Assembly: GCF_002007205.1 (NCBI RefSeq)
Contig: NZ_LAZS01000014.1
Location: 372,001 to 436,000 of the forward strand
Length of the DNA stretch: 64,000 nt
DNA from: Ensifer adhaerens
Lineage (GTDB): Bacteria; Pseudomonadota; Alphaproteobacteria; Rhizobiales; Rhizobiaceae
Direction of reading: 5' to 3'
Every line of letters starts with the position of its first letter. Position 1 is the first letter of the stretch. The notes under the pieces are model-generated. The model was not told the origin of the DNA. It ran no database searches and saw only the letters and a program-made list of their open reading frames with translations. Of this stretch, positions 4,373 through 37,283 are shown piece by piece. The translations under genes and the position numbers were made by a program.

Positions 4373-5263
4373 TTATCGCCGTTCGAGCAACCGGCAGATT
4401 TCTTCGAGCTGATCGAGCGTCTTGTAAGCGATGCGCAGATGGCCGCCGGACGCCTTGTGGTTCACGGTCACCTCAAGCCCCAGGCTATCGGACAGCGTGC
4501 GCTCGAGCGCCAGCGTATCGGCATCCTTCTCGTCGCGGCGGGCGGTCTTGCCGTAGTTGGGATCGTTCTGCGCGCGAATATCGTTCTGCGCGATGCGCTC
4601 GGCGTCACGCACCGAGAGACCCTTGGCAATGATCGTCCGGGCGAGGGTGGCCGGATCCGATGTCGGAATGAGCGCGCGCGCATGTCCAGCCGAAAGCGCA
4701 CCTTCCGACAACATGTCGCGAACCGGCTCCGGCAGTTTGAGCAGGCGCAGGCTGTTGGCCACGTGGCTTCGGCTCTTGCCGATGATTTCGCCGAGATCGT
4801 TCTGCGTATAGCCGTGCTCGGCAATCAGTTGCTCGTAGCCGAGCGCTTCATCGAGCGGATTGAGGTCGGAACGCTGGACGTTTTCAACGATGGCGATTTC
4901 AAGCGCCGTGCGATCGTCGACGTCGCGAATGATGACCGGGATTTCGGTGAATCCGGCCAGCTGCGCTGCCCGCCAGCGACGCTCACCGGCGATGATCTCG
5001 TAGCGATCGACCCCGATCGTCCGCGCGACGACGGGTTGGACGATGCCATGCTGCCGGATCGAATTGGCGAGATCCTGCAGTTCTGCCTCGTCGAATTGCC
5101 GACGCGGGTTACGCGGGTTGCGCGATACGAACTCGATCGGCACTCGTCGATCCGGATTGACCGGGGCAGGGGCGGCCGCGCCGGTCTGCAACGGTTGATC
5201 CATCTCGCCGATCAACGCGGCCAGTCCGCGCCCGAGCCGTCTCTTCGAGCTATCGTCGTTCAT
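4373..5263 (-). CDS. parB: Chromosome partitioning protein ParB
   Basis: CTP-dependent DNA clamp that loads at parS sites and spreads, forming the partition complex moved by ParA and recruiting condensin. The 296-residue product has the N-terminal RRLGRGLAALIGE motif that contacts ParA, the CTP-binding domain with GERR at residues 93-96, and a helix-turn-helix around 152-174 (TQNDLGEIIGKSRSHVANSL). The C-terminal dimerisation segment ends LEEICRLLERR. It lies 35 bases downstream of parA and is co-transcribed with it. Five probable parS sites occur in this same window. Confidence 0.96.
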   Translation of the reverse strand: MNDDSSKRRLGRGLAALIGEMDQPLQTGAAAPAPVNPDRRVPIEFVSRNPRNPRRQFDEAELQDLANSIRQHGIVQPVVARTIGVDRYEIIAGERRWRAAQLAGFTEIPVIIRDVDDRTALEIAIVENVQRSDLNPLDEALGYEQLIAEHGYTQNDLGEIIGKSRSHVANSLRLLKLPEPVRDMLSEGALSAGHARALIPTSDPATLARTIIAKGLSVRDAERIAQNDIRAQNDPNYGKTARRDEKDADTLALERTLSDSLGLEVTVNHKASGGHLRIAYKTLDQLEEICRLLERR

Positions 5264-5298
5264 ATCGTCACCCGAGTTAAATTACGCTACCGAAATGA

Positions 5299-6111
5299 TT
5301 ATGCCGCCTTGCGCTGGCGCTCGCGTTGAATGACTTCGGAGGCCAGTTGCAGATAGGCCTGGCTGCCGGCGCACTTCAGATCGTACAGAATGGCCGGCTT
5401 GCCATAGGACGGCGCTTCCGAGACGCGAACATTACGCGGGATCAAGGTGTGGTAAACCTTATCGCCGAGATGCGTCCGTACGTCGCTAACAACCTGCTGT
5501 GCGAGGTTGTTGCGGGAATCGAACATCGTCAGCACGATGCCCTGGATATCCAGACTCGGATTCACGGTCCGGCGAATCTGATCCACGGTCTCCAACAACT
5601 GGCTCAAGCCTTCGAGCGCAAAGAACTCGCACTGCAGCGGCACGAGCACGGAATGCGCCGCAGCCATCGCGTTCATCGTCAGCAAATTGAACGACGGCGG
5701 GCAATCGACGAGCACGTAGGAATACTCCATCGCCGCGGGGCTGACCAAGGCCTTGCGCAAACGGAAGACGCGATCCGGTTCCTGCGAAATTTCCATCTCG
5801 ACACCGAGAAGGTCCATGGTCGATGGAATGATCGAGAGGTTCGGAACGGCTGTCTGCTGAGCGATCTCACCGATCCCGTGCGACCCCATCATCAGCTCGT
5901 AGGATGACAGGTTACGATCGCGGCGCTGGATGCCCAGGCCGGTGCTGGCGTTGCCCTGCGGGTCCAGATCAACGATCAGAACGTGTTCGCCGATGGCCGC
6001 CAATGCGGTTGCCAGATTGATGGCGGTCGTGGTTTTGCCGACGCCGCCTTTCTGATTTGCGATTGTGATGATCCGGTTTTTGCCACCAAACATGTTTCCG
6101 CTCGCGATCAC
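5299..6111 (-). CDS. parA: Chromosome partitioning ATPase ParA
   Basis: Deviant Walker-type ATPase that binds nucleoid DNA when ATP-bound and draws ParB-parS complexes toward the new pole. The signature [10 protein letters not shown] is at residues 21-30, followed by [10 protein letters not shown] and the [13 protein letters not shown] motif. Two starts are possible: a GTG at 6111 that shares GTGA with the rsmG stop (270 residues), or an ATG at 6093 (MFGGKNR, 264 residues). The first is favoured by the 4-base overlap; neither has a strong ribosome site. It forms an operon with rsmG upstream and parB downstream. Confidence 0.95.
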
Positions 6112-6749
6112 TGGGCCCTGCGCGCCAGATTTGCGATCTCGAGCACGACAGAATCCGGCTCGACCACGCTTGGATGTTTTACCAGATCAAACTGATAGCG
6201 GCCAACGGCTTTGTCGATTTCGCGCTGGTAATCCCGCCCTTTATGGAAGTAGGCGACCGCTTTCTGCTCCTTCGCCGTCATCCACGGCGCAGAATAGTCG
6301 AGCAGCAGGGTCAAATCCGCGAGCGCGCGCGCCGAAACAGCGTCCGCGCGGGGAATCAATGCACCTGCTTCTTCGATTCGAACCGGGTGAACCGAGCCGC
6401 GCGCGCCGGTTTCTGCCAATGCGACACGCAAGAATGCAGCCTTCTTATTGTTGCTTTCGACAAGATGGACCCAACCGTCGCCAAACTCGGCGAGATAGAT
6501 CGCCGTGATGACACCTGGAAAGCCGCCACCGCTGCCGAGATCGACCCAGGTCTTCGGGCCTGGCGACAACTTCGCGAGCTGCAAGCTATCGACAATGTGC
6601 CGACGCCAAAGATCTTCGATCGTGGACGGCGCAACAAGATTGATCGACTTCGCCCACTTCTGGAAGAGCTTGGCAAAATGCTCGAGCCGTTCATTCGTTT
6701 CACGTGAAACACGCAGTCCGTTCAACACATCGATTGGACTCGCCTTCAT
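6108..6749 (-). CDS. rsmG: 16S rRNA (guanine-527-N7)-methyltransferase RsmG (GidB)
   Basis: SAM-dependent enzyme that methylates G527 of 16S rRNA; loss in other bacteria gives low-level streptomycin resistance. The product is 213 residues. The SAM-binding motif is [13 protein letters not shown], preceded by the RHIVDSLQL segment that is diagnostic for RsmG. Its ATG overlaps the mnmG stop by four bases (ATGA), and its stop overlaps the parA GTG, so mnmG-rsmG-parA-parB are translationally linked. The N-terminal codons (LRVSRETNE) contain a parS-like ParB site, so the protein sequence there is shaped by two functions. Confidence 0.95.
6696..6711. promoter_or_regulatory. parS: parS-like ParB binding site inside rsmG
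   Basis: CGTTTCACGTGAAACA matches the bacterial parS consensus TGTTTCACGTGAAACA at 15 of 16 positions. It lies within the first codons of rsmG. It is about 1.5 kb from parB and part of a cluster of five sites near the probable origin. Confidence 0.85.
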
Positions 6750-26545: not shown

Positions 26546-26677
26546 AACAGGCGGAATTCCAGACTAGACCAAACCGGCCATTGCTTTGGCCGGTTTTCTT
26601 TTGCCGGCAAGTCGGTAGTCTTCGCGGTCGAATCTATTGATGGCGTGAGGTTTGCCCCCCGCGATCCATTTCCCCGC

Positions 26678-26788: not shown

Positions 26789-27595
26789 ATGCCGGCACCG
26801 AAGAATCCCTTTAAAGCGGCTATCCGCGAAAACCGCTTCCAGCTTGGGCTCTGGGTGGCGCTTGCCAGTCCCTATGCGGCCGAAGTGGTGTCCGGCAGCG
26901 GCTATGACTGGCTGCTGATCGACGGCGAACACGCGCCGAACGACATTCCTTTGCTGTCGGCGCAGTTTCGCGCCGTCTCGGCATCGGCCAGCCACCCGAT
27001 GGTTCGGCTGCCAGTCGGCGATACCGTGCTGATCAAGCAGATCCTCGATACCGGCGTGCAGACCCTCTTGATCCCGATGGTCGAGAGCCTGGCGCAGGCG
27101 CAGCAGCTGGTGCGCGCCACCCGCTATCCGCCGCATGGTATTCGCGGCGTCGGCGCCGCCCTCGGTAGGGCTTCTCAGTTCGGCCGTATCGGCGATTATC
27201 TGCAGACCGCCGGCGACGAAATCTGCCTGATCCTGCAGATCGAAAGCCGGGCGGGTCTCGCCGCGATCGATGAGATTGCAGCACTCGATGGCGTCGACGG
27301 CCTGTTCATCGGCCCCTCCGATCTCGCGGCCGACATGGGCTATCTCGGAAAGCCGGGCCACCCGGAGGTGCGTGCGGCGATCGCCGACGCATTCGAGCGC
27401 ATCAAGAAAGCCGGCAAGGCGCGCGGCATCATGACGCTCGATCTCGAGCAGGCGCGCGACTATCGCGAGATGGGCTCTGATTTCATGGCGATTGGCACGG
27501 ATGTTACCTCGCTCGTGCGTGCGACGACGGCGCTGAGGCAGGAATTTCTCGGCGAGACTGCTGCGGCTCCGAAAAAACAGGAATCCGGCTACTGA
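26789..27595 (+). CDS. HpcH/HpaI-family class II pyruvate aldolase
   Basis: Metal-dependent aldolase that splits 2-keto-3-deoxy sugar acids or hydroxy-oxoheptanedioate into pyruvate and an aldehyde. The 268-residue product has the catalytic His48 in IDGEHAPND, pyruvate-binding Arg73 (VRLP) and metal ligands Glu152 (QIESRAG) and Asp178 (GPSDLAA). The family includes HpaI, GarL, RhmA and 2-keto-3-deoxygluconate-type aldolases, which sequence alone cannot split. The neighbourhood (UxaB- and UxaA-like enzymes) favours a 2-keto-3-deoxy sugar acid over an aromatic-pathway substrate. Its stop overlaps the end of the convergent uxaB-like gene by seven bases. Confidence 0.85.
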   Translation: MPAPKNPFKAAIRENRFQLGLWVALASPYAAEVVSGSGYDWLLIDGEHAPNDIPLLSAQFRAVSASASHPMVRLPVGDTVLIKQILDTGVQTLLIPMVESLAQAQQLVRATRYPPHGIRGVGAALGRASQFGRIGDYLQTAGDEICLILQIESRAGLAAIDEIAALDGVDGLFIGPSDLAADMGYLGKPGHPEVRAAIADAFERIKKAGKARGIMTLDLEQARDYREMGSDFMAIGTDVTSLVRATTALRQEFLGETAAAPKKQESGY

Positions 27596-28677
27596 TCGCA
27601 GATCGCCGTGAGCTCGGGCATCGCCACGTTCGGGCTCCAGCGCCGGAAATCGCCGATGCGACGCTCGATTTTTTCGCGGTGGTGGTTGGCGATATCGCCT
27701 AGGCGGTGGTCGAGGAATGGGTTTCTGAAGCGCTCCAGCGTCGCGGCCACATAGTCTACCGCTTCAGTTTCCAGGCCTTTCGCAGCGAAGGCCGGGATCA
27801 CCTCCGACCGATAGATGCGGTCGAGGCGCGCTGAGAGGTCGGCATCGGCCAGGATTTCCCGAACGGTCTCGTTCGCATCGCGGCCCGCCTTGAGCCAGAG
27901 TTCGGCCAGCACCGTGTGACCGAGATTGAGGATGTGAAGCTTTAGTTTCTCGTAAGGCGCCAGCTCATCAACCAGTTTCACGCAGGGATGGATGCACGGC
28001 AGCCGCAAGCCGGGCTGATTTTCGATCGCCCAGAGCGCATAGGGTTCGGCAATCGCACCGGCAGGTTCCAGCGGCTCGGAGACGATGCGGTCGACGAGCG
28101 TGTTTGCCCAGACGACACTCTTGTTCAGCCAGTCGGCAAAGGCGCTGTCTTTTACCCGTTCTGCCGCGAGCCCCAGCATCACCGCCTTCAGCACATCGCC
28201 ATTGCGCGACACAAGCTCGCAGGGAAGGATCGTCAGGGGACGCCCGCCGGCGTCGAAGCGTGCCTGCAGCAGCAGGAGCAGCTTGCCCGGAAAAGAACGG
28301 GGAATGTCCGTTATCCGATCGTCGTTGCCGACTTGGTAGCCCGTGTCACCGGTGTTGGAGATCAGGACCTCGGCCTCCTCGGCAACAATCTCACGGACGG
28401 CGCTCCAGCTTTCGGCGGTCAAAAGTGCCCGCGCCACGCTGGTCACCCGCTGGATTGTGTCGATCCGCTCTCCGCCTTGGATGCCCCGGACGATAACGGG
28501 AAAGCCATCGGGGCGGGCAAGCGCCGCCAGGCGTCCGGACCGTTCGCTCGACCCTGTCGTTTGCACGATCGTGATCGGTCCTAAAGCCTCTCCTTTTGTC
28601 AGCGCCTCACTGACGAAGAGATCGGCATGCGCCTGCAGAAAGCGGCTCGTTCCGAATTGCACGATCGGCGTCGGCAT
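27589..28677 (-). CDS. uxaB: Tagaturonate/fructuronate reductase-like (mannitol dehydrogenase family)
   Basis: NAD-dependent reductase of the long-chain mannitol dehydrogenase family; UxaB members convert tagaturonate to altronate. The ATG at 28677 (MPTPIVQFGTSRFLQAHAD, GGAG ahead) gives 362 residues, shorter than E. coli UxaB (about 480). The N-terminal QFGTSRFLQAH replaces the usual cofactor loop, and the catalytic KLKLHILNLGH stretch with Lys, Asn and His is present. It is 20 bases downstream of the GntR gene and in the same operon. Mannitol or altronate-type substrates both fit the family; the adjacent UxaA-like dehydratase favours altronate. Confidence 0.75.
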   Translation of the reverse strand: MPTPIVQFGTSRFLQAHADLFVSEALTKGEALGPITIVQTTGSSERSGRLAALARPDGFPVIVRGIQGGERIDTIQRVTSVARALLTAESWSAVREIVAEEAEVLISNTGDTGYQVGNDDRITDIPRSFPGKLLLLLQARFDAGGRPLTILPCELVSRNGDVLKAVMLGLAAERVKDSAFADWLNKSVVWANTLVDRIVSEPLEPAGAIAEPYALWAIENQPGLRLPCIHPCVKLVDELAPYEKLKLHILNLGHTVLAELWLKAGRDANETVREILADADLSARLDRIYRSEVIPAFAAKGLETEAVDYVAATLERFRNPFLDHRLGDIANHHREKIERRIGDFRRWSPNVAMPELTAICDQ

Positions 28678-28697
28678 GTATTGGCTCCGATAGCTGG

Positions 28698-29576
28698 CTA
28701 TGGAATGGATTGAAGTAAAGTTTCGCGCGCGGACTGGAGATGTCGCCGGCATGCCTGTTCGGCCTTTCCCGGGTCGTGAGAGCGCAGCGCCTCGATATAG
28801 GCGAGATGCTCCTCCAGCGCGCGGGCGTTACGCTCACGGGCATTCGTCTTGTTCCACTGGTAGTGATAGTGGAAGACGATCGCGATGATGTCGTAGAAAT
28901 CGACGATGAAGCGGTTGCTGGACGCCTTGTGCACCAGCAGGTGGAACTTCTCGTCGAGTTCGGAGAATTCCCGGTAGCGGCTGTCGATATCAGCCAGAAT
29001 CTCCCGGTGCAGCGCTTCGATTTGGGTCAACTCGGCCCAGGCCGAGTGGTCGTCGGGCAGCGACACGAAGCGCGCGGCCGAGCGCAGCTCGAACATCTCG
29101 CGCACTTCCGTCAGCTCGAGAGCGAATTCCCGGGTGAAGCCTTTGAGGATCCAGTGGCTGTTCGGCCGCTTCTCGATCAGGCCGAAGCGGCTGAAGCGGA
29201 TGAGAAACTCGCGCACGCTGGTGGTGCCGGTGCCGATCTCGCGGGCAAGTTCCAGTTCGTTGATCTGCATGCCCGGTTCGGCGCCGCCGGCGAGAATCCG
29301 GCGCATGAAGCTGCGCTCGATGATCTCGGCGAGCGAATCCGTCTCTTCCGTCGGAAAATAATCGTCGGGCCGGGGCTGGCGCAGCACGCTCTTCTTGCGT
29401 TTGTCCCAGGCGATCAGCTGCAGCTCCTCGAAGCGGCTGAGGATTGCCCGCACCGTCGTTCGGCTGACGCCGAGCATCTGGCCGAGCTCCGGCTCGGAGG
29501 GCAGCGAAGATGTGTCCGCCAGCAGTTTCAGGCAGCGGTTATAGGCATCCTTGAAGACGGTGTTCTGTTTTGCCAT
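28698..29576 (-). CDS. GntR-family regulator with two winged-helix domains and FCD domain
   Basis: Ligand-responsive regulator, likely repressor, of the surrounding catabolic genes. The 292-residue product has two GntR-type helix-turn-helix segments: residues about 26-55 (LPSEPELGQMLGVSRTTVRA) and about 100-134 (EPGMQINELELAREIGTGTT). The second leads into an FCD ligand domain (about 152-290) with the metal-site pattern of Asp and His residues (ELDEKFHLLVH, HYHYQW, LEEHLAYI). Ordinary GntR/FadR proteins have a single HTH. It is divergent from uxaA, with an inverted repeat between the genes. Confidence 0.85.
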   Translation of the reverse strand: MAKQNTVFKDAYNRCLKLLADTSSLPSEPELGQMLGVSRTTVRAILSRFEELQLIAWDKRKKSVLRQPRPDDYFPTEETDSLAEIIERSFMRRILAGGAEPGMQINELELAREIGTGTTSVREFLIRFSRFGLIEKRPNSHWILKGFTREFALELTEVREMFELRSAARFVSLPDDHSAWAELTQIEALHREILADIDSRYREFSELDEKFHLLVHKASSNRFIVDFYDIIAIVFHYHYQWNKTNARERNARALEEHLAYIEALRSHDPGKAEQACRRHLQSARETLLQSIP

Positions 29577-29725
29577 GGGCGACGTCCGGCCGATCGAGAA
29601 ATCTGTGCGTTTATCAGCGACGCTCCTCTATCGCGGCGATCCGGTTTTGTCTGCGTCTGTCGTCGACATCTGTTCCTCCCGTTTGCCCGGTCGTCAGCTC
29701 GGCGGTCTCACCGACGCTTTCCGCT

Positions 29726-29772
29726 ATAATACCCATTGACGGAAATCTGTCTATTGTAGATAAAAGACAGAT
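29726..29772. promoter_or_regulatory. Divergent gntR-uxaA promoters with candidate operator
   Basis: A perfect 8-bp inverted repeat ATCTGTCT (29745-29752) / AGACAGAT (29765-29772) with a 12-base spacer. Leftward, TAGACA (29753-29748) and TATTAT (29731-29726) with a 16-base spacer would drive the GntR gene, with the left arm over its -35. Rightward, TTGACG (29736-29741) and GATAAA (29759-29764), spacer 17, would drive uxaA, with the right arm touching its -10. The placement suits a repressor acting on both. The string GATAAAAGACAGAT here resembles one ahead of the transporter genes. Confidence 0.5.
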
Positions 29773-29798
29773 GCCCGTAACGAACAAGGAGAAGATCG

Positions 29799-31304
29799 GT
29801 GTCTGCGCCGTCCACCATCCTGCTTTCACCGGAGGACAACGTCGTCGTGGCGACCCTGGCGATCGCCGCCGGTGAGGCTTTGCCAAATGGCGCCCGCGCG
29901 GCGGCGAAGGTGGATGCGGGACACAAGATCGCGATCCGCGCGATCCACGCCGGCGAACCGGTGGTCAAATACGCCCAGGCAATCGGCCGCGCGACCGTGG
30001 ATATCGCGCCGGGCGACCACGTGCATTCCCATAATCTTGCTTTTGATCGGGACCGGCTCGCGATCGGCCCGCAAGGAACGCCGCAGGCGGCAAGCGCCGC
30101 TGACAGGGCGCGCACCTTCATGGGCTATCGCCGTGGCGACGGGCGTGCGGCGACGCGAAACTACATCGGCATCGTCGCCAGCGTGAATTGTTCCACCACC
30201 GTCTGTCGCGCCATTGCCGAGGAGGCGAACCGGCGCATCCTGCCGAAATACGAAGGCATCGATGGCTTCGTGCCGATCGTGCACGACCAGGGTTGTGGCA
30301 TGTCGTCGACCGGCGACGGCATGGCCAGCCTGCACCGCACGCTCGCCGGCTACGCCCGCCACGTCAATTTCGGTGGCGTGCTGATGGTGGGGCTCGGCTG
30401 CGAGGTCAACCAGTTGACGCTTTACGGCCAGAGCGGCGCCGGCGCCGAGAAACGCCATTTCAACATTCAGGAGGCCGGCGGCTCGCGTCGCTCCGTGGAA
30501 AAGGCACTCGGCATTCTCGAGGAAATCGCGGCCGAGGTCGGAAGAGAGCGCCGTATCCCCATTCCGGTCAGCGAGATCATCGTTGGCCTGCAATGCGGAG
30601 GATCGGACGGGCTTTCGGGCATCACCGCCAATCCGGCGCTGGGTGCTGCCGTCGATATCCTTGCCGCGGTCGGCGGCACGGCGATCCTCTCGGAGACCTC
30701 GGAGATCTATGGTGCCGAGCACCTACTGCGCAGTCGGGCGGTCAATGAAGCGGTGGCGGTGAAGCTCGATGGCCTGATTTCCTGGTGGGAGGACTATGTG
30801 GCGCTGCATGGCGCCTCGCTCGACAACAATCCTTCGCCGGGCAACAAACGCGGTGGCCTGACGACCATTCTCGAAAAATCGCTCGGTGCCGTCGCCAAGG
30901 GTGGCCGCTCGCCACTGACTGCCGTCTATCGTTACGCCGAGCGCATCACCGAGCACGGGCTCGTCTTCATGGATACGCCCGGCTACGACCCGGTATCGGC
31001 CACTGGCCAGGTTGCCGGCGGCGCCAACGTGATTGCTTTTACCACCGGCCGCGGCAGCTGTTTCGGCTGTCGGCCCGCGCCGTCGATCAAGCTCACCAGC
31101 AACACGGCGCTGTTCAGGGCGATGGAAGAGGACATGGATATCGATTGCGGCGTGATTGCTTCGGGGGAGGCGACGATTGCCGGGCTCGGTCGCGAGATCT
31201 TCGACCTGATCGTCGAGACCGCCTCTGGCCGCAAGACCAAGAGCGAGATCTTTGGTTACGGCGATAATGAGTTCGTGCCCTGGCATCTGGGCGCAACGCT
31301 CTAA
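29799..31304 (+). CDS. uxaA: UxaA-family altronate dehydratase
   Basis: Iron-dependent dehydratase that converts D-altronate to 2-keto-3-deoxy-D-gluconate; galactarate dehydratase GarD is in the same family. The 501-residue product starts at GTG with AAGGAG ahead. It has the N-terminal SAF domain (about residues 8-80) and the large UxaA domain with conserved Cys residues in SVNCSTTVC, DQGCGM, GLGCEVNQ, LQCGGSDG and GSCFGCRPAPSIK. Full length, no break. First gene of the rightward catabolic and transport group; the aldo/keto reductase gene follows after 39 bases. Confidence 0.87.
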   Translation: MSAPSTILLSPEDNVVVATLAIAAGEALPNGARAAAKVDAGHKIAIRAIHAGEPVVKYAQAIGRATVDIAPGDHVHSHNLAFDRDRLAIGPQGTPQAASAADRARTFMGYRRGDGRAATRNYIGIVASVNCSTTVCRAIAEEANRRILPKYEGIDGFVPIVHDQGCGMSSTGDGMASLHRTLAGYARHVNFGGVLMVGLGCEVNQLTLYGQSGAGAEKRHFNIQEAGGSRRSVEKALGILEEIAAEVGRERRIPIPVSEIIVGLQCGGSDGLSGITANPALGAAVDILAAVGGTAILSETSEIYGAEHLLRSRAVNEAVAVKLDGLISWWEDYVALHGASLDNNPSPGNKRGGLTTILEKSLGAVAKGGRSPLTAVYRYAERITEHGLVFMDTPGYDPVSATGQVAGGANVIAFTTGRGSCFGCRPAPSIKLTSNTALFRAMEEDMDIDCGVIASGEATIAGLGREIFDLIVETASGRKTKSEIFGYGDNEFVPWHLGATL

Positions 31305-31343
31305 ATACGCAACGACTGGCATCCTTGGAGGAGGAGACGGGGA

Positions 31344-32363
31344 ATGCAGACGAGACGGATCGGTCGAACCGAGCTATCGGTAACCGAGTTTAGCTTTGGC
31401 GCCGCCGGCCTTGGCGGGCTCTATCGCGAGTGTACCCATGACGCGGCCATCGCGACGCTGGAGGCGGCCTGGCAGTCGGGCATGCGCTACTTCGACGTGG
31501 CCCCCTATTACGGCCTCGGCCTGGCCGAGCGTCGCGTCGGCGACTTCCTGCGCGAGAAACCGCGTGATCAGTTCGTGCTCTCCACCAAGGTCGGCCGTCT
31601 CCTGCATCCGGTGCCGGAAGACAGGGTGCCGGACTATTCCTATGTGAAGCCGCTCAATTTCGACGTCACCTACGACTATAGCTATGACGGCATCATGCGT
31701 TCCGTCGAGTTCAGCTACGCCCGGCTGGGGCTCAACCGCATCGATATCCTCTATGTGCACGATATCGGCGTCTACACACACGGTGCCGCGCGCAATGCAG
31801 CCTACCTGCGGCAATTGCTGGAGGGCGGTCTCAAGGCGCTGGAGGATCTGAAATCCTCTGGAACGATCGCCGCCTATGGTCTCGGCGTCAACGAAGTGCC
31901 GGTCTGTCTCGACGTCCTGCGTCGAGCCGATCTCGATTGCATCCTGCTGGCCGGTCGCTACACGCTGCTTGATCGATCCGCCGTCGCCGAGTTGTTGCCG
32001 CTTTGCGAGAAAAAGGGGACCTCTCTTGTCGTTGGCGGTGTCTTCAATTCGGGCATCCTGGCGACGGGACCGATCGAAGGCGCGCATTTCGACTACATGC
32101 CGGCAACGGAGGATATCCGGCAAAAGGTCGGCGCCATGGACGCGGTCGCCCGCGGCATGAACGTGCCGCTTGCCGCACCCGCCATGCAGTTTCCACTCGC
32201 CAGTCCGCAGGTCGCCTCGGTGCTGCTCGGCACGGCCAAGCCGCAGAGCCTGGTGCGTAATATGGCGCTCGTCGATCGACGGTTTTCCGCCGCCGACTTT
32301 GCCGCCTTCGAGCCGTTTACGCTTGTCGCGCCGGAGCTCGGCGACGAGCCGGTTCGGGTTTAA
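31344..32363 (+). CDS. Aldo/keto reductase, L-fucose/L-galactose dehydrogenase-like
   Basis: NAD(P)-dependent sugar dehydrogenase of the aldo/keto reductase superfamily. The 339-residue product carries the tetrad Asp51, Tyr56 (FDVAPYYG), Lys82 (LSTKVGR) and His139 (LYVHDIG). The pattern GGLYRE plus PYYGLGLAERRVGDFL and RPVPEDRVPDYSY-like segments is that of aldose 1-dehydrogenases acting on L-fucose, L-galactose or D-arabinose, and of pyridoxal 4-dehydrogenases, which are close relatives. Context (sugar transporter, sugar-acid enzymes) supports an aldose, giving an aldonolactone. Confidence 0.8.
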   Translation: MQTRRIGRTELSVTEFSFGAAGLGGLYRECTHDAAIATLEAAWQSGMRYFDVAPYYGLGLAERRVGDFLREKPRDQFVLSTKVGRLLHPVPEDRVPDYSYVKPLNFDVTYDYSYDGIMRSVEFSYARLGLNRIDILYVHDIGVYTHGAARNAAYLRQLLEGGLKALEDLKSSGTIAAYGLGVNEVPVCLDVLRRADLDCILLAGRYTLLDRSAVAELLPLCEKKGTSLVVGGVFNSGILATGPIEGAHFDYMPATEDIRQKVGAMDAVARGMNVPLAAPAMQFPLASPQVASVLLGTAKPQSLVRNMALVDRRFSAADFAAFEPFTLVAPELGDEPVRV

Positions 32364-32447
32364 CGGACGGCACTAAAGCGCCGTCTGAAATGCTGTTCCG
32401 GCAGCTTGCCAAGCCGGCATTGTCGTATTAGCATTCCAATATGTTTT

Positions 32448-32468
32448 TTATCGATAAAAGGTCGATAA
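32448..32468. promoter_or_regulatory. Candidate operator upstream of the transporter genes
   Basis: Perfect 7-bp inverted repeat TTATCGA (32448-32454) / TCGATAA (32462-32468). It includes GATAAAAGGTCGAT (32453-32466), which shares 11 of 14 positions with the string ahead of uxaA. It lies in the 167-base gap before the binding-protein gene, which suggests a separate regulated transcript for the transporter. A short imperfect GC hairpin follows the aldo/keto reductase stop (about 32365-32384). Confidence 0.45.
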
Positions 32469-32530
32469 GCTGGCACCTGCGATCGATCTCCAAGAAGTGG
32501 AACACGGTGCACTAAGAGGAGAAACCTGGG

Positions 32531-33520
32531 ATGAGCATTCTGAAAAGCAGCCTTACCCGTCGCGCCTTCACAGCCTTGGCGAGTGCCGCGATGATTGCCG
32601 GCATGTCGCCGGTCGCGTCCTTCGCGCAGGACGTGACGATCCCGATCATCGTCAAGGATACGACGTCTTTCTACTGGCAGATCGTGCTGGCCGGCGCCCG
32701 CGCCGCGGGTAAGGATCTCGGCGTCAACGTGCCGGAACTCGGCGCCCAGGCCGAATCCGATATCAATGGCCAGATCAGCATTCTCGAAAACGCGGTCGCC
32801 GGCGCACCGGCTGCCGTCGTCATTTCGCCGACGGAGTTCAAGGCGCTCGGCAAGCCGATCGACGAGGCCGCCAAGGCCGTTCCGATCATCGGTATCGATT
32901 CCGCAGCCGACTCCAAGGCCTTCTCGTCGTTTCTGACGACCGACAACGTCCAGGGCGGGCGCATTGCTGCCGACGGGCTCGCCGCAGCGGTGAAGGAAAT
33001 GACCGGCAAGGAAGAGGGCGAAATCGCCATCATCACCAACCTTCCAGGCGTCGGTTCGCTCGACCAGCGCCGCGAAGGCTTCCTCGATCAGATCAAGACC
33101 AAGTATCCGGGCTTCAAGGTCGTCGCTGATAAATATGCCGATGGTCAGGCGACCACCGGCCTCAACATGATGACCGACCTGATCACCGCCAACCCCAATC
33201 TGGTTGGCGTCTTCGCGTCCAACCTGATCATGGCGCAGGGCGTCGGCCAGGCGATCGCCGAAAACAAGCTCGGCGACAAGATCAAGGTGATCGGTTTCGA
33301 CAGCGACGACAAGACGGTCGGCTTCCTCAAGGAAGGCGTTCTGGCGGCCCTCGTCGTTCAGGATCCCTATCGCATGGGTTATGATGGCATAAAGACGGCG
33401 CTCGCCGTCTCCAAGAAGGAGAAGGTTGAGGCGAATGTCGATACCGGTGCCAACCTGGTGACCAAGGCCAACATGGCGGACCCGAAGATCGACGCTCTCT
33501 TGAACCCGAAGATCAAGTGA
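32531..33520 (+). CDS. Sugar ABC transporter substrate-binding protein (ribose type)
   Basis: Periplasmic receptor that delivers a sugar to the membrane transporter. The 329-residue product has a signal peptide with cleavage predicted after ASFA; the TRRAFTA stretch near the start resembles a twin-arginine motif. The mature part is a periplasmic-binding protein of the LacI/RbsB fold (VTIPIIVKDTTSFYWQ, GVFASNLIMAQGVGQAI, VIGFDSDDKTVGFLKEG). The gene precedes an RbsA-type ATPase and RbsC-type permease. The substrate is not readable from sequence; the locus suggests an aldohexose or its deoxy analogue. Confidence 0.9.
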   Translation: MSILKSSLTRRAFTALASAAMIAGMSPVASFAQDVTIPIIVKDTTSFYWQIVLAGARAAGKDLGVNVPELGAQAESDINGQISILENAVAGAPAAVVISPTEFKALGKPIDEAAKAVPIIGIDSAADSKAFSSFLTTDNVQGGRIAADGLAAAVKEMTGKEEGEIAIITNLPGVGSLDQRREGFLDQIKTKYPGFKVVADKYADGQATTGLNMMTDLITANPNLVGVFASNLIMAQGVGQAIAENKLGDKIKVIGFDSDDKTVGFLKEGVLAALVVQDPYRMGYDGIKTALAVSKKEKVEANVDTGANLVTKANMADPKIDALLNPKIK

Positions 33521-33554
33521 CGACGGCGCGGCGGGCCTTCGGCCTGCCGCACCG

Positions 33555-33588
33555 CGCTTGCGGCCGGAGCGAGGACCGGCCGCAAGCG
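33555..33588 (+). repeat. Strong hairpin between binding-protein and ATPase genes
   Basis: Thirteen-base perfect stem (CGCTTGCGGCCGG at 33555-33567, complement at 33576-33588) with an eight-base loop, 35 bases after the binding-protein stop and without a T tract. An imperfect second hairpin precedes it. Such structures commonly protect the upstream mRNA end, so that binding protein is made in excess over the ATPase and permease. Confidence 0.6.
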
Positions 33589-33614
33589 ATCTCTGCCATG
33601 GGAGGAATGCGCAG

Positions 33615-35168
33615 ATGACCGAGTTGCAAGAGGCACGCGACATCAGGACCGAAGGGCTGCATGTGGCGACACGTCACCCGGTTCCGAAAGGCGAGCCTAT
33701 CCTGGAGCTGCGCGCCCTGCAGAAGAAGTATGGCGCCGTCGAAGCCTTGAAGCCGGCGTCGCTGACCTTTCTTTCCGGTGAGATTCACGCGATCGTCGGC
33801 GAGAACGGTGCCGGCAAGTCGACGCTGATCAAGCTCTTGACCGGCGTCATCAAGCGCACGTCCGGCGAAGTCTTCTGGTGCGGCAAGCCGGTGCAGCTGG
33901 GCACGCCGCAGGAGGCGATCGAGCGCGGCATCAATGCCGTGCATCAGGAAGTGGTGCTCTGCGCCCATCTGACGGTGGCAGCCAACATGTTTCTCGGCGA
34001 CGAGATCAACCGCAACGGCCTGATGCGCAAGCGCGCCATGACCGATGCGGCACAAAGCGTGCTGGATGATCTCGGCTTCAACCTGCCGGCCGGCGCCGTG
34101 CTCGGCAGCCTGACCATCGGCCAGCAGCAGCTTGTTGCCACGGCGCGCGCCGCCATGCGCGGCACACAGTTTCTGATCTTCGACGAGCCGACCGCCTATC
34201 TCACCCGCCAGGAATCGGCGCAGCTCTTCCGGCTGATCAGAAGGCTGCAGGCCGAAGGCGTGACCATCGTCTATATCAGCCATCGCATGGAGGAAGTCTT
34301 CGAGCTTGCCGACCGTGTCTCGGTGCTGCGCGACGGCACCCATGTGGGCACCCGCAGGATCGGGGAGACGAACGAGGCCGAGCTGATCGCCCTGATGATC
34401 AACCGCACCATCGAGCAGATCTACCACAAGGAGCATTTTCCGCCCGGCGAGGTTATCGTCGAGACGCGCAACTTGAGCGGTCCCGGCTTTCAGGATGTGT
34501 CTCTGACCGTGCGCGCCGGCGAGATCGTCGGCTTGTATGGGCTGATCGGAGCGGGGCGCAGCGAGTTCGCGCTCGGTCTCTACGGCCGGCACCGACCAAC
34601 ATCAGGCGAGGTCTATTGGCAGGGGCGCAAGGTGGAGATCGCCAGCGAGCGCATCGCCATGGATCTCGGCATCGCGCTGGCGCCGGAAAGCCGGCGTGAC
34701 CAAGGCCTCTGCCTCAACCTGCCGATCGGCCTCAACATCAATCTGCCGGTTTTCAACCGGCTGTCGCGCGGCCTGACGATCAACGGCCAGCAGGAGCGGG
34801 AGAACGCCGACCGGCAGATCCGCGATCTGAAGATCAAGACGCCGTCGCGGCGCGTCCTGGTGTCCGCCATGTCGGGCGGCAACCAGCAGAAGATCGTCAT
34901 CGGCAAGTGGTTGAGCCATGGCGCTAAGCTCTTCATTTTCGATGAACCGACCGTCGGCGTCGACGTGGGCACCAAGGCGGAAATCTACCGCCTGTTCGCG
35001 CGGCTTCTGGAGAAGGGGGCAGGCATCGTTCTGATCTCCTCCTACCTGCCCGAGGTCTACGAACTCGCCGACCGGCTGCATGTGTTCCGAGGCGGCCGGC
35101 TCGTTGCCAGCCATGACTATCGCGCCGCCAGCCATGAGGAAGTGCTGACGCAGGCGATCGGCGTTTGA
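33615..35168 (+). CDS. Sugar ABC transporter ATP-binding protein, RbsA type (two domains)
   Basis: Energises sugar import. The ATG at 33615 (GGAGG ahead) gives 517 residues with two fused nucleotide-binding domains. The first is complete: Walker A GENGAGKST (62-70), signature LTIGQQQLV, Walker B FLIFDEPTAYLT. The second has a degenerate P-loop (GLIGAGRSE) but keeps SGGNQQKIVIGKWL and IFDEPTVGVDVGTKAEIY, the normal state in RbsA/MglA/XylG proteins. It precedes the permease gene by 88 bases. Confidence 0.93.
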   Translation: MTELQEARDIRTEGLHVATRHPVPKGEPILELRALQKKYGAVEALKPASLTFLSGEIHAIVGENGAGKSTLIKLLTGVIKRTSGEVFWCGKPVQLGTPQEAIERGINAVHQEVVLCAHLTVAANMFLGDEINRNGLMRKRAMTDAAQSVLDDLGFNLPAGAVLGSLTIGQQQLVATARAAMRGTQFLIFDEPTAYLTRQESAQLFRLIRRLQAEGVTIVYISHRMEEVFELADRVSVLRDGTHVGTRRIGETNEAELIALMINRTIEQIYHKEHFPPGEVIVETRNLSGPGFQDVSLTVRAGEIVGLYGLIGAGRSEFALGLYGRHRPTSGEVYWQGRKVEIASERIAMDLGIALAPESRRDQGLCLNLPIGLNINLPVFNRLSRGLTINGQQERENADRQIRDLKIKTPSRRVLVSAMSGGNQQKIVIGKWLSHGAKLFIFDEPTVGVDVGTKAEIYRLFARLLEKGAGIVLISSYLPEVYELADRLHVFRGGRLVASHDYRAASHEEVLTQAIGV

Positions 35169-35256
35169 TCATAGAGAGCGGGATGAGGAAAAAGTGTGAG
35201 CGGTTGTCCGCCCGCATCCCGCTCCAGGAAATCCAAAGGATGCAGGGAGGAAGGCG

Positions 35257-36234
35257 ATGAGTGCGGAAACGGTGGAAAGCGGCGCGAGCGCGGCACCACG
35301 CAAGGGCGTGAGTATTCTGTTCGGCCTCACCCTTCTTGGGCTGCTTCTGTTCCTCTGGTTGCTCCTGGGGCTTGCCACCAACAGCTTCTGGACGCCAAAC
35401 AATATCAGCAACCTTTTGCGTCAGGGCGCGATGACGGCGATCCTCGCAGTCGGCCAGACCTTCGTCATCATTACCGCCGGCATCGATCTGTCGGTCGGCG
35501 CCGTAGTCGGCTTTACCAGCGTCATCGTCGCCTGGCTGTTGGCCGCCGGCGTGCCGCTCTGGATCGCCATCATCCTCACGCTCGCCTTCGGCGTGCTGAT
35601 CGGCGCCTTCCATGCCTTCGGCATCGTGCGCATGGGGCTACCGCCCTTCATCATCACGCTGGCGACCCTCACGTCGTTGCGCGGCATCGGTCTCCTGATC
35701 ACCAATGGCTCGACCATTTCGATCACCAATGAAGCCTTCACCAATTTTTCGCGGGCGGATTTCCTCGGCGTGCCCAGCCTGTTCTGGATGGTGATCGTGG
35801 TGGCGATTCCGGCCTATGTCTTCCTGCATCTGAGCCGTTTCGGCCGCTATCTCTTCGCCGTCGGCTCCAACAGTGAGGCCGCACGCCTTTCCGGCGTCAA
35901 CGTCCACCGCACGATCTATCTCGCCTACATCCTGTCGTCGACCTGCGCCGCCTTCGTCGGCCTGCTGCTTGCCTCGCGCATCGGCATCGGCAATGCCACC
36001 CAGGCCGAAGGCTGGGAACTGCAGGCGATCGCCTCGTCGGTCATCGGCGGCACCAGCCTCTTCGGTGCCGTCGGCTCGGTGCACGGGCCGCTGCTCGGCG
36101 CCTTCATCCTCGCGACGATCAACAACGGCGCCAATCTGCTGAACGTGAACTCGTTCTGGCAGCGCATCATCACCGGCGCGCTGATCATCGTCATCGTCTA
36201 TTTCGACCAATTGCGTCGCCGCAGCGCCCGCTAG
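35257..36234 (+). CDS. Sugar ABC transporter permease, RbsC type
   Basis: Membrane channel subunit of the sugar importer. The 325-residue product has eight to ten hydrophobic helices and the family landmarks VGQTFVIITAGIDLSVGAVVG near the start and the cytoplasmic GSNSEAARLSGVNV loop that couples to the ATPase, then GGTSLFGAVGSVHGPLLGAFIL. GGAGG precedes the ATG. One permease gene is enough, since RbsC works as a homodimer. The alcohol dehydrogenase gene follows 26 bases later in the same operon. Confidence 0.92.
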   Translation: MSAETVESGASAAPRKGVSILFGLTLLGLLLFLWLLLGLATNSFWTPNNISNLLRQGAMTAILAVGQTFVIITAGIDLSVGAVVGFTSVIVAWLLAAGVPLWIAIILTLAFGVLIGAFHAFGIVRMGLPPFIITLATLTSLRGIGLLITNGSTISITNEAFTNFSRADFLGVPSLFWMVIVVAIPAYVFLHLSRFGRYLFAVGSNSEAARLSGVNVHRTIYLAYILSSTCAAFVGLLLASRIGIGNATQAEGWELQAIASSVIGGTSLFGAVGSVHGPLLGAFILATINNGANLLNVNSFWQRIITGALIIVIVYFDQLRRRSAR

Positions 36235-36260
36235 ACGCCGCCGTATTAGAGAGAATTGCC

Positions 36261-37283
36261 ATGAAAGCCGTGCTCTGCCTCGAACCCGGCCGCCTGGAGG
36301 TCGTTGACCGCCCGCGGGCCGAAAACGTGCCTGACGGCTGGGTGCGCCTTGCCGTCAGCCATGTCGGCATCTGCGGCACCGACTACCATATCTTCGCCGG
36401 CAAACATCCGTTCCTCGAATATCCGAGGGTGATGGGTCACGAGATCTCGGCAACGGTGATTGCCGGCGGGCGAGGGACGACGATGGCGCCCGGAACGCCT
36501 GTTGTGGTCAATCCCTATCTCTCCTGCGGCAACTGTGTTGCCTGCCGGAAGGGCAAGCCCAACTGCTGCACTGCCATCGAGGTTCTCGGCGTTCATACCG
36601 ATGGCGCGTTCTGCGAGGAGATCGTCGTGCCGGAGGGTAACCTTTATCCGGCGCAGGGCCTGTCGGCGGAGGCAGCCGCCACCGTCGAGTTCCTGGCAAT
36701 CGGCGCCCACGCGGTACGCCGGGCATCGGCGGATGCCGGTTCGCGGGCGCTGGTCATCGGCGCAGGCCCGATCGGCCTCGGGACGGCGATCTTCTCGCGC
36801 ATCGCCGGCCATGACGTGGTGCTCGCCGACACCAGCGCCGAGCGGCTGGACTTTGCCGCCCGCAAGCTCGGCTTTGCCAAGGGCATCGTCGTGGATGCTG
36901 ATGCGGCGGCGCGCGTTGCCGCGGCGACGGACGGCGACGGCTTCGATGTCGTTTTCGACGCCACGGGGCATGGTGGCTCGATGCAGGCCGCCTTCGCCCA
37001 TGTCGCCCATGGCGGCACGCTGGTCTTCGTCAGCGTCGTCAAGGACGAGATACGTTTCTCCGATCCGGAGTTCCACAAGCGTGAAATGACCCTGATCGGC
37101 AGCCGCAACGCGACCCGCCAGGATTTCGACCATGTCGTGACATCGATCGCGTCCGGCCTCGTGCCGGTCGAGGCGCTGATCACCCACCGCACCACGCTGG
37201 ACGGCACGGTTGCCGATCTGCCGCGATGGGCGGAGGAAAAGACGGGTCTGGTGAAGGCAATCGTGAAGGTGGTCGCAGCTTGA
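36261..37283 (+). CDS. Zinc alcohol dehydrogenase, L-galactonate 5-dehydrogenase-like
   Basis: Medium-chain NAD(P)-dependent dehydrogenase. The 340-residue product has the catalytic zinc ligands Cys38, His60 and Glu61 (GICGTDYH, MGHEIS), the structural zinc Cys group (SCGNCVACRKGKPNC) and the Rossmann motif VIGAGPIGLG. Relatives are L-idonate, sorbitol, galactitol-phosphate and L-galactonate 5-dehydrogenases. Its place with UxaB- and UxaA-like enzymes suggests oxidation of L-galactonate at C5 to tagaturonate, as E. coli LgoD (YjjN) does. It closes the transporter operon. Confidence 0.8.
   Translation: MKAVLCLEPGRLEVVDRPRAENVPDGWVRLAVSHVGICGTDYHIFAGKHPFLEYPRVMGHEISATVIAGGRGTTMAPGTPVVVNPYLSCGNCVACRKGKPNCCTAIEVLGVHTDGAFCEEIVVPEGNLYPAQGLSAEAAATVEFLAIGAHAVRRASADAGSRALVIGAGPIGLGTAIFSRIAGHDVVLADTSAERLDFAARKLGFAKGIVVDADAAARVAAATDGDGFDVVFDATGHGGSMQAAFAHVAHGGTLVFVSVVKDEIRFSDPEFHKREMTLIGSRNATRQDFDHVVTSIASGLVPVEALITHRTTLDGTVADLPRWAEEKTGLVKAIVKVVAA

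Follow-up and report, generated by a model that had tools for sequence, protein, structure and literature searches.

A conserved rhizobial locus that may combine uptake and oxidation of L-fucose and L-galactose with C5 inversion of L-galactonate

In this work, we describe a nine-gene sugar locus of Ensifer adhaerens, located within a 64-kb stretch of DNA to which we refer as the window. It is a real and conserved locus, probably locally regulated, and probably a variant of the known oxidative catabolism of L-fucose and L-galactose. For Bacteroides vulgatus, dehydrogenases acting on L-galactose and on L-galactonate were reportedly described by Hobbs in 2014. In Luteolibacter LG18, L-galactose is converted to tagaturonate and on to 2-keto-3-deoxygluconate (KDG), which is then processed by a kinase and a KDPG aldolase (PMC12632266; this paper, PMC5507952, PMC6336799 and PMC3454389 are cited throughout for the sections covered here). 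Its dual L-glucose/L-galactose cluster, lguABCDEF, groups an aldo/keto reductase (AKR) with enzymes of the UxaA, UxaB and LgoD types, as does the locus in the window; by contrast with this type of pathway, which has a KDPG aldolase in the cluster and its KDG kinase elsewhere in the genome, no KDPG aldolase is found among the nine genes of the window locus, to which the search for it was confined, and the covered sections on LG18 mention neither a CUT2 importer nor HpaI. LguA was moreover grouped with known L-galactose dehydrogenases (PMC12632266), whereas the AKR of the window falls into another clade in a tree built without LguA; a pattern based on the N-terminus of LguA gave no match, and a search for AKR homologs returned homologs but, judging by their titles, not LG18 itself. 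For Halomonas, loci that serve both L-fuconate and L-galactonate and include lgoD, uxaA and uxaB have been proposed, and Chromohalobacter has a similar L-galactonate locus (PMC5507952). The genes lgoD, uxaA and uxaB (or uxaF) are co-located there as in the window, and Halomonas adds L-fucose/L-fuconate genes, but the transporters are of the TRAP type and take up the acids, in contrast to the CUT2 sugar importer of the window. Dual specificity of the transporter is proposed in the same paper and, for Chromohalobacter, stated as characterized. Finally, the non-phosphorylating D-arabinose/L-fucose pathways of Herbaspirillum huttiense employ an AKR and a UxaA-family dehydratase, as in the window (PMC6336799, PMC11199699), and substrate promiscuity of the UxaA family has been described for Herbaspirillum (PMC6336799). 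There, however, a short-chain dehydrogenase/reductase (SDR), the L-2-keto-3-deoxyfuconate dehydrogenase (L-KDFDH), acts after the dehydratase, whereas the window locus has no SDR.

Among rhizobia, the periplasmic protein SMc02774 of Sinorhizobium meliloti binds L-fucose with a Kd of 3.6 nM, whereas the inducers of its gene are L-fucose, D-fucose and pyruvate (PMC3454389). SMc02775 is annotated as a putative L-fucose dehydrogenase (EC 1.1.1.122), the transporter is likewise annotated for L-fucose, and phaZ is SMc02770 (PMC12542648). The region SMc02772-SMc02775 thus resembles the window, where the AKR also adjoins the CUT2 genes near phaZ, and judging from residue numbering and gene order the two appear to be orthologous. 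In ten loci, including L110 and L111, the binding protein agrees with SMc02774 in the limits of its construct (Q33-N329) and in the ligand residues Lys10, Arg148, Asn199 and Gln245. The binding proteins of L110 and L111 are about 90% identical to that of the window; the latter keeps Q33 and, at the same numbers, all four ligand residues, with K329 in place of N329. As ribose-binding proteins share these four residues (PMC3454389), the residue numbering is the stronger sign of orthology. The correspondence is nevertheless incomplete: in L110 and L111, which fit the S. meliloti numbering, UxaB is absent and an L-fucono-lactonase-like gene follows the zinc dehydrogenase gene, and two genes lie between phaZ and the importer, compared with a single tag number (SMc02771) in S. 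meliloti. The binding protein is also 87% identical to Arad_9553 of Agrobacterium radiobacter (PDB 4rxt), and an alignment-based fold with a pLDDT of 90 replaced a poor single-sequence fold (pLDDT 42). Hence, through the binding shown by others on its probable ortholog, L-fucose has the strongest support among the possible ligands of the importer.

The locus spans positions 26789-37283. ORF list and profile scans confirmed nine ORFs, each in the superfamily that an initial annotation of this DNA had named beforehand: an HpaI aldolase, a UxaB-like reductase, a GntR regulator, a UxaA/GarD dehydratase, an AKR, a CUT2 importer of three genes and an LgoD-like zinc-dependent medium-chain dehydrogenase/reductase (MDR). 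All nine are flanked by gyrB and phaZ, in the window as well as in all five congeners whose neighbourhoods were compared, and the dehydratase is found in 16 of 16 same-genus genomes, including its own, at 89-100% identity; therefore, the locus is not a product of chance. Compared with E. coli, the MDR is 41% identical to LgoD, the dehydratase 37% identical to UxaA and likewise to GarD, the hpaI product 49% identical to RhmA and 46% to GarL, and the UxaB-like reductase 30% identical to UxaB, with a C-terminus shorter by about 100 residues. The 387-residue ORF of the latter begins at an upstream ATG inside gntR, but its start probably lies at 28677 (MPTPIVQ), some 20 bases past the gntR stop codon. 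The proteins carry DVAPYYG, STK and VHD (AKR), the UxaB-type KxxxxNxxH and the zinc motifs of the MDR, all of which we take to be catalytic. The UxaB-type motif is present in 20 of 22 parsed UxaB-like ORFs, the other two being mis-parsed (55 and 6 residues) and L033, L034, L133 and L134 standing outside the count.

We consider it rather probable that the locus serves a dual, locally regulated uptake and oxidation of L-fucose and L-galactose, including a C5 inversion of L-galactonate, with D-arabinose as a possible further substrate. The importer would take up an L-fucose-type sugar, which the AKR would oxidize at C1 to the lactone and hence the aldonate. L-galactonate would then be oxidized at C5 to D-tagaturonate by the LgoD-like enzyme, reduced to D-altronate by the UxaB-like enzyme and dehydrated to KDG by the UxaA-family enzyme, while the dehydratase may act directly on L-fuconate or D-arabinonate. 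Finally, HpaI would split KDG or its analogue, or else a kinase with a gene outside the locus would phosphorylate it. For L-galactonate, the inversion would make sense in that an L-series acid becomes the D-series KDG, and for the same reason it fits a sugar with a C6 hydroxyl group. As for the AKR, it is best called a sugar dehydrogenase of the L-fucose/L-galactose/D-arabinose type, with unproven preference. Its best solved relatives are L-galactose dehydrogenases, and its wider group in the tree includes AKRs whose genes neighbour those of an SDR, a mutarotase or a lactonase (L043, L044). This tree was midpoint-rooted without an outgroup and omitted rows below 280 residues or at most 35% identical; rows below 400 residues were omitted from that of the dehydratase.

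To compare relatives, 151 family genomes were searched with the AKR and 151 with the UxaB-like protein, and 20-kb neighbourhoods were compared. The AKR has matches at E<=1e-70 in 85 genomes, most of which fall outside the neighbourhood sample, and counterparts of at least 63% identity in 24 family genomes (the neighbourhoods in G124 and G165 stand outside the sample, and G103 was left out of the following counts, as no binding-protein ortholog matched nearby). In the 25 loci with AKR and binding protein, including the window, gntR, the AKR and the three importer genes are invariant (25/25), followed by the MDR (22/25) and hpaI (15/25). An L-fucose-mutarotase-like gene occurs in ten of them, and an L-fucono-lactonase-like gene and an SDR in three each. 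Hence, homologs of both the lactonase and the mutarotase that the window locus lacks are present in some orthologous loci of relatives. These family calls rest on a few representatives, none of which reaches its curated cut-off. Against the L-fucose mutarotase model (cut-off 141), two mutarotases score 131 and 118 bits, compared with 39 and 37 for ribose pyranase; a single lactonase reaches 203 of the 400 bits required by the L-fucono-1,5-lactonase model. Given the invariant set, the constant part would be import and C1 oxidation, while the downstream part varies. It even seems to have been swapped between genera, given the loci L117, L121 and L123, which contain an SDR as in Herbaspirillum and lack uxaA and uxaB; the SDR of L117 is 75% identical to the L-KDFDH-like enzyme encoded elsewhere in the genome of the window.

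Within the variable part, genes of the LgoD-like, UxaB-like and UxaA-like types tend to co-occur. A UxaB-like gene was found by tblastn in 26 of 60 neighbourhoods; 21 of these contain an MDR gene and 15 a UxaA-like gene, always with the MDR. Among the 34 neighbourhoods without UxaB, the MDR occurs in 11. The sample is not neutral in this respect, as all 60 were picked by hits to the AKR, UxaA or UxaB. Four loci outside the AKR clade (L041, L131, L132 and L140) nevertheless combine MDR, UxaB and UxaA with the operator described below and a GntR regulator of 46-49% identity. The initial annotation had proposed a route from L-galactonate over tagaturonate to altronate, and this chemistry is plausible for part of the locus: it agrees with the joint occurrence of the three genes, with a single UxaA/GarD member in the genome and with the finding of no UxaC.

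The gap separating gntR from uxaA contains a palindrome, TGTCTWTTRTMKAYAAWAGACA, at 29748, and a weaker copy precedes the importer genes at 32442. The first is the only site with at most three mismatches in the 6.87-Mb genome (control, 0). With at most four mismatches, the operator is found in all 24 AKR/importer loci, and 17 of these have a second site. Since the consensus was derived from 19 intergenic regions, mostly of AKR/importer loci, this 24/24 is not an independent result. Of the two groups not used for the consensus, however, all five loci selected by the presence of MDR and UxaB together with a GntR regulator at least 46% identical have it, compared with one of 38 comparison loci (L138, with four mismatches). 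Among the 16 UxaB loci outside the AKR clade, five contain the operator (L041, L130, L131, L132, L140); of the others, L138 has its four-mismatch match and ten have no site at this threshold. The GntR protein is predicted to bind the palindrome and would thus act on two operators, in the gntR/uxaA gap and before the importer, the direction of regulation being equally a prediction. The shared operator makes the proposed regulon directly testable. DNA-binding models match this GntR/FCD regulator at about residues 16-61 and 86-140, in what looks like a tandem layout, and the regulators of relatives are similar in length (292-308 residues).

Several observations weigh against this interpretation. 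On the level of individual enzymes, the LgoD-, UxaB- and UxaA-type assignments are based on similarity, with curated cut-offs missed: the UxaB-like reductase reaches 211 bits on the tagaturonate reductase model NCBIfam PRK03643 (cut-off 359), the dehydratase also stays below its cut-off, and the hpaI product just misses that of the HpaI equivalog TIGR02311 (368.0 bits versus 368.8). On the level of the locus, UxaB is present in only 11 and uxaA in 16 of the 25 AKR-plus-importer loci, and L115, L124 and L144 keep just gntR, the AKR and the importer nearby; the full route is therefore not a fixed unit. A check genome by genome found no close homolog of UxaB in seven of the 16 genomes that make up the dehydratase clade, which, together with the UxaB gene missing from 14 of 25 loci, speaks against the altronate branch as a fixed part. 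These seven genomes do hold distant members of the mannitol dehydrogenase family (27-33% identity), which might replace UxaB. The operator, moreover, is missing in L037, L128 and L129, which have related genes with GntR at 38-46% identity. As noted in the initial annotation, no lactonase is found among the nine genes, nor did lactonase queries match at the locus, which also lacks the mutarotase expected of an oxidative L-fucose cluster. Regarding the substrate, the AKR is placed outside the clade of solved L-galactose dehydrogenases, with 100/100 branches setting eight rows (three PDB chains named as L-galactose dehydrogenase, plus five homologs) apart from the 40 rhizobial ones. The orthology to SMc02774 is drawn from numbering and gene order rather than from an alignment to its sequence, D-fucose and pyruvate induce SMc02774 yet do not bind, and the covered sections of PMC3454389 contain no L-galactose binding data.

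A further objection, as well as candidates for missing functions, is found elsewhere in the genome. Among the products of a second cluster (L157, G000:C4:144500-164499) is an SDR matching (E 1.9e-93) the H. huttiense enzyme proven to be an L-2-keto-3-deoxyfuconate dehydrogenase, structures of which are named in PMC11199699, in addition to an enolase-superfamily protein, an amidohydrolase and, as apparent from the ORFs, a sugar ABC importer. This cluster may be the main L-fucose route, in which case the window locus would be free for L-galactose or D-arabinose. Judging from their ORFs, the genes that follow it look like a rhamnose cluster. Three SGL lactonase proteins encoded elsewhere pass the cut-off, and the one closest to the SGL protein of a related locus (L129, 53%) adjoins a gluconate-type LacI-family repressor gene, which makes it only a candidate lactonase for the route. 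A sugar cluster other than the window locus contains a cog3618-like amidohydrolase with 28-33% identity to the lactonases of relatives.

Closure by HpaI is weakly supported and the weakest link of the route. The hpaI gene has no operator before it, is convergent to uxaB, and in genome G132 lies alone between gyrB and phaZ; for these reasons, a role in closure is only plausible, and the initial description of HpaI as the closing aldolase is not borne out. In this genome, neither another sugar-locus gene nor gabD matched at the gyrB-phaZ position (L248, G132:C22), and the importer and AKR genes lie on another contig. A homolog of the E. coli KDG kinase (38%) is encoded elsewhere in the genome of the window, so that the kinase-free character once attributed to the route cannot be upheld as shown.

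In an alternative, direct route for L-fucose and/or D-arabinose, the AKR would yield L-fuconate or D-arabinonate, the UxaA-family enzyme would dehydrate it, and HpaI would release pyruvate and L-lactaldehyde or glycolaldehyde, with the MDR and UxaB as accessory enzymes. Besides the L-fucose binding of the probable ortholog, the mutarotase- and lactonase-like genes of relatives point in this direction, as do the seven genomes that retain the dehydratase without a close UxaB homolog and the Herbaspirillum UxaA-family enzyme that acts on D-arabinonate and, weakly, on L-fuconate (PMC6336799). Yet this route leaves no role for UxaB and the MDR, the latter present in 22 of 25 loci, nor does it account for the four loci outside the AKR clade in which MDR, UxaB, UxaA and operator occur together, and the distant mannitol dehydrogenase family proteins might stand in for UxaB in the seven genomes. 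We regard it as possible but doubtful.

A dedicated L-galactose route, in which L-galactose is the main substrate and is converted via L-galactonate, tagaturonate, altronate and KDG to pyruvate and D-glyceraldehyde by HpaI, appears unlikely. Every required enzyme class is present, the finding of no UxaC speaks for it, and the steps to KDG have been shown in Luteolibacter (PMC12632266). On the other hand, the nanomolar ligand of the probable ortholog is L-fucose and the AKR does not group with the solved L-galactose dehydrogenases, which together count against the initial assignment of L-galactose as the imported sugar; likewise, 14 of 25 loci lack UxaB, and hpaI has neither an operator nor, in G132, a cluster.

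The dual reading raises the question of what L-fucose would gain from an inversion at C5. By our reasoning it has no clear use there, unless the LgoD-like and UxaB-like enzymes also convert L-fuconate to 6-deoxy-D-altronate, from which the dehydratase and HpaI would yield pyruvate and D-lactaldehyde. Such a route, which is not described in the literature sections covered, seems very unlikely; if true, a single enzyme set would perform the same inversion for both sugars. Hardly any credence is due to hexuronate use or to an L-glucose/L-gluconate pathway like that of Paracoccus 43P, which runs through 5-keto-L-gluconate and D-idonate: LguD does accept L-gluconate besides L-galactonate (PMC12632266) and the UxaA family includes a D-idonate dehydratase (PMC6336799), but the probable ortholog's ligand is L-fucose, and no UxaC was found in the genome, so that tagaturonate, if made, is unlikely to derive from galacturonate and hexuronate entry via UxaC was dropped.

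Table 1. Features of the locus and their positions in the window.
Feature	Position	Strand	Basis or remark
Intrinsic-terminator-like hairpin in the gabD/hpaI gap	26571..26596	+	10 pairs; may part gabD from the locus
HpcH/HpaI-family aldolase, possible last step, without operator	26789..27595	+	Profile, E. coli comparison
UxaB-like short reductase of the mannitol dehydrogenase family	27589..28677 (ORF listed to 28752)	-	Profile, motifs
GntR/FCD regulator, probably in one operon with the UxaB-like gene	28698..29576	-	Profile matches
Operator 1, palindromic TGTCTATTGTAGATAAAAGACA, between divergent gntR and uxaA	29748..29769	.	Genome-wide motif search
UxaA/GarD-family sugar-acid dehydratase	29799..31304	+	Profile, E. 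coli comparison
AKR, probable sugar 1-dehydrogenase, probable SMc02775 ortholog	31344..32363	+	Profile, structure matches, tree
Promoter-like site just before operator 2	32406-32434		3 such sites found versus 2.2 expected
Operator 2, TGTTTTTTATCGATAAAAGGTC, upstream of sbp	32442..32463	.	Motif search; 4 mismatches to consensus
CUT2 periplasmic sugar-binding protein, probable SMc02774 ortholog, close homolog of Arad_9553 (PDB 4rxt)	32531..33520	+	
CUT2 ABC transporter ATPase	33558..35168	+	Profile
CUT2 ABC transporter permease	35257..36234	+	Profile
LgoD-like zinc-dependent MDR dehydrogenase	36261..37283	+	Profile, E. coli comparison, motifs

The adjacent gabD was considered as a pathway member and rejected: its product scores as a succinate-semialdehyde dehydrogenase (849 bits versus a curated cut-off of 828), and the hairpin listed in Table 1 may also separate it from hpaI. 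This hairpin is statistically weak, as the region contains ten terminator-like sites compared with a mean of 7.5 in shuffled sequences. In the congener locus L032 (G003:C1:396000-415999), gabD matched in three pieces at 4747-6308, which may be due to frameshifts or sequencing errors. A scan of positions 20000-44000 against Rfam gave no match, and a tRNA search of the window found none.

Nearly all of the proposed chemistry is known from elsewhere, while the arrangement looks only partly described. The initial annotation knew of no description in rhizobia of such a closed, non-phosphorylating route with its own transporter; against this stand the publication of the route in Luteolibacter (PMC12632266) and the existing L-fucose annotations of the S. 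meliloti transporter and AKR. We recognized no report of this rhizobial combination in the literature, which is a weak negative, as subscription papers were mostly outside its coverage. If correct, the dual L-fucose/L-galactose reading would join an L-fucose-binding rhizobial importer, for which the literature found describes no downstream pathway, to the C5-inverting branch of L-galactonate users. Both sugars are found in the cell-wall glycans of plants, and L-galactose is a precursor of ascorbate. For this reason, it is plausible that the locus is a trait of root-associated life.

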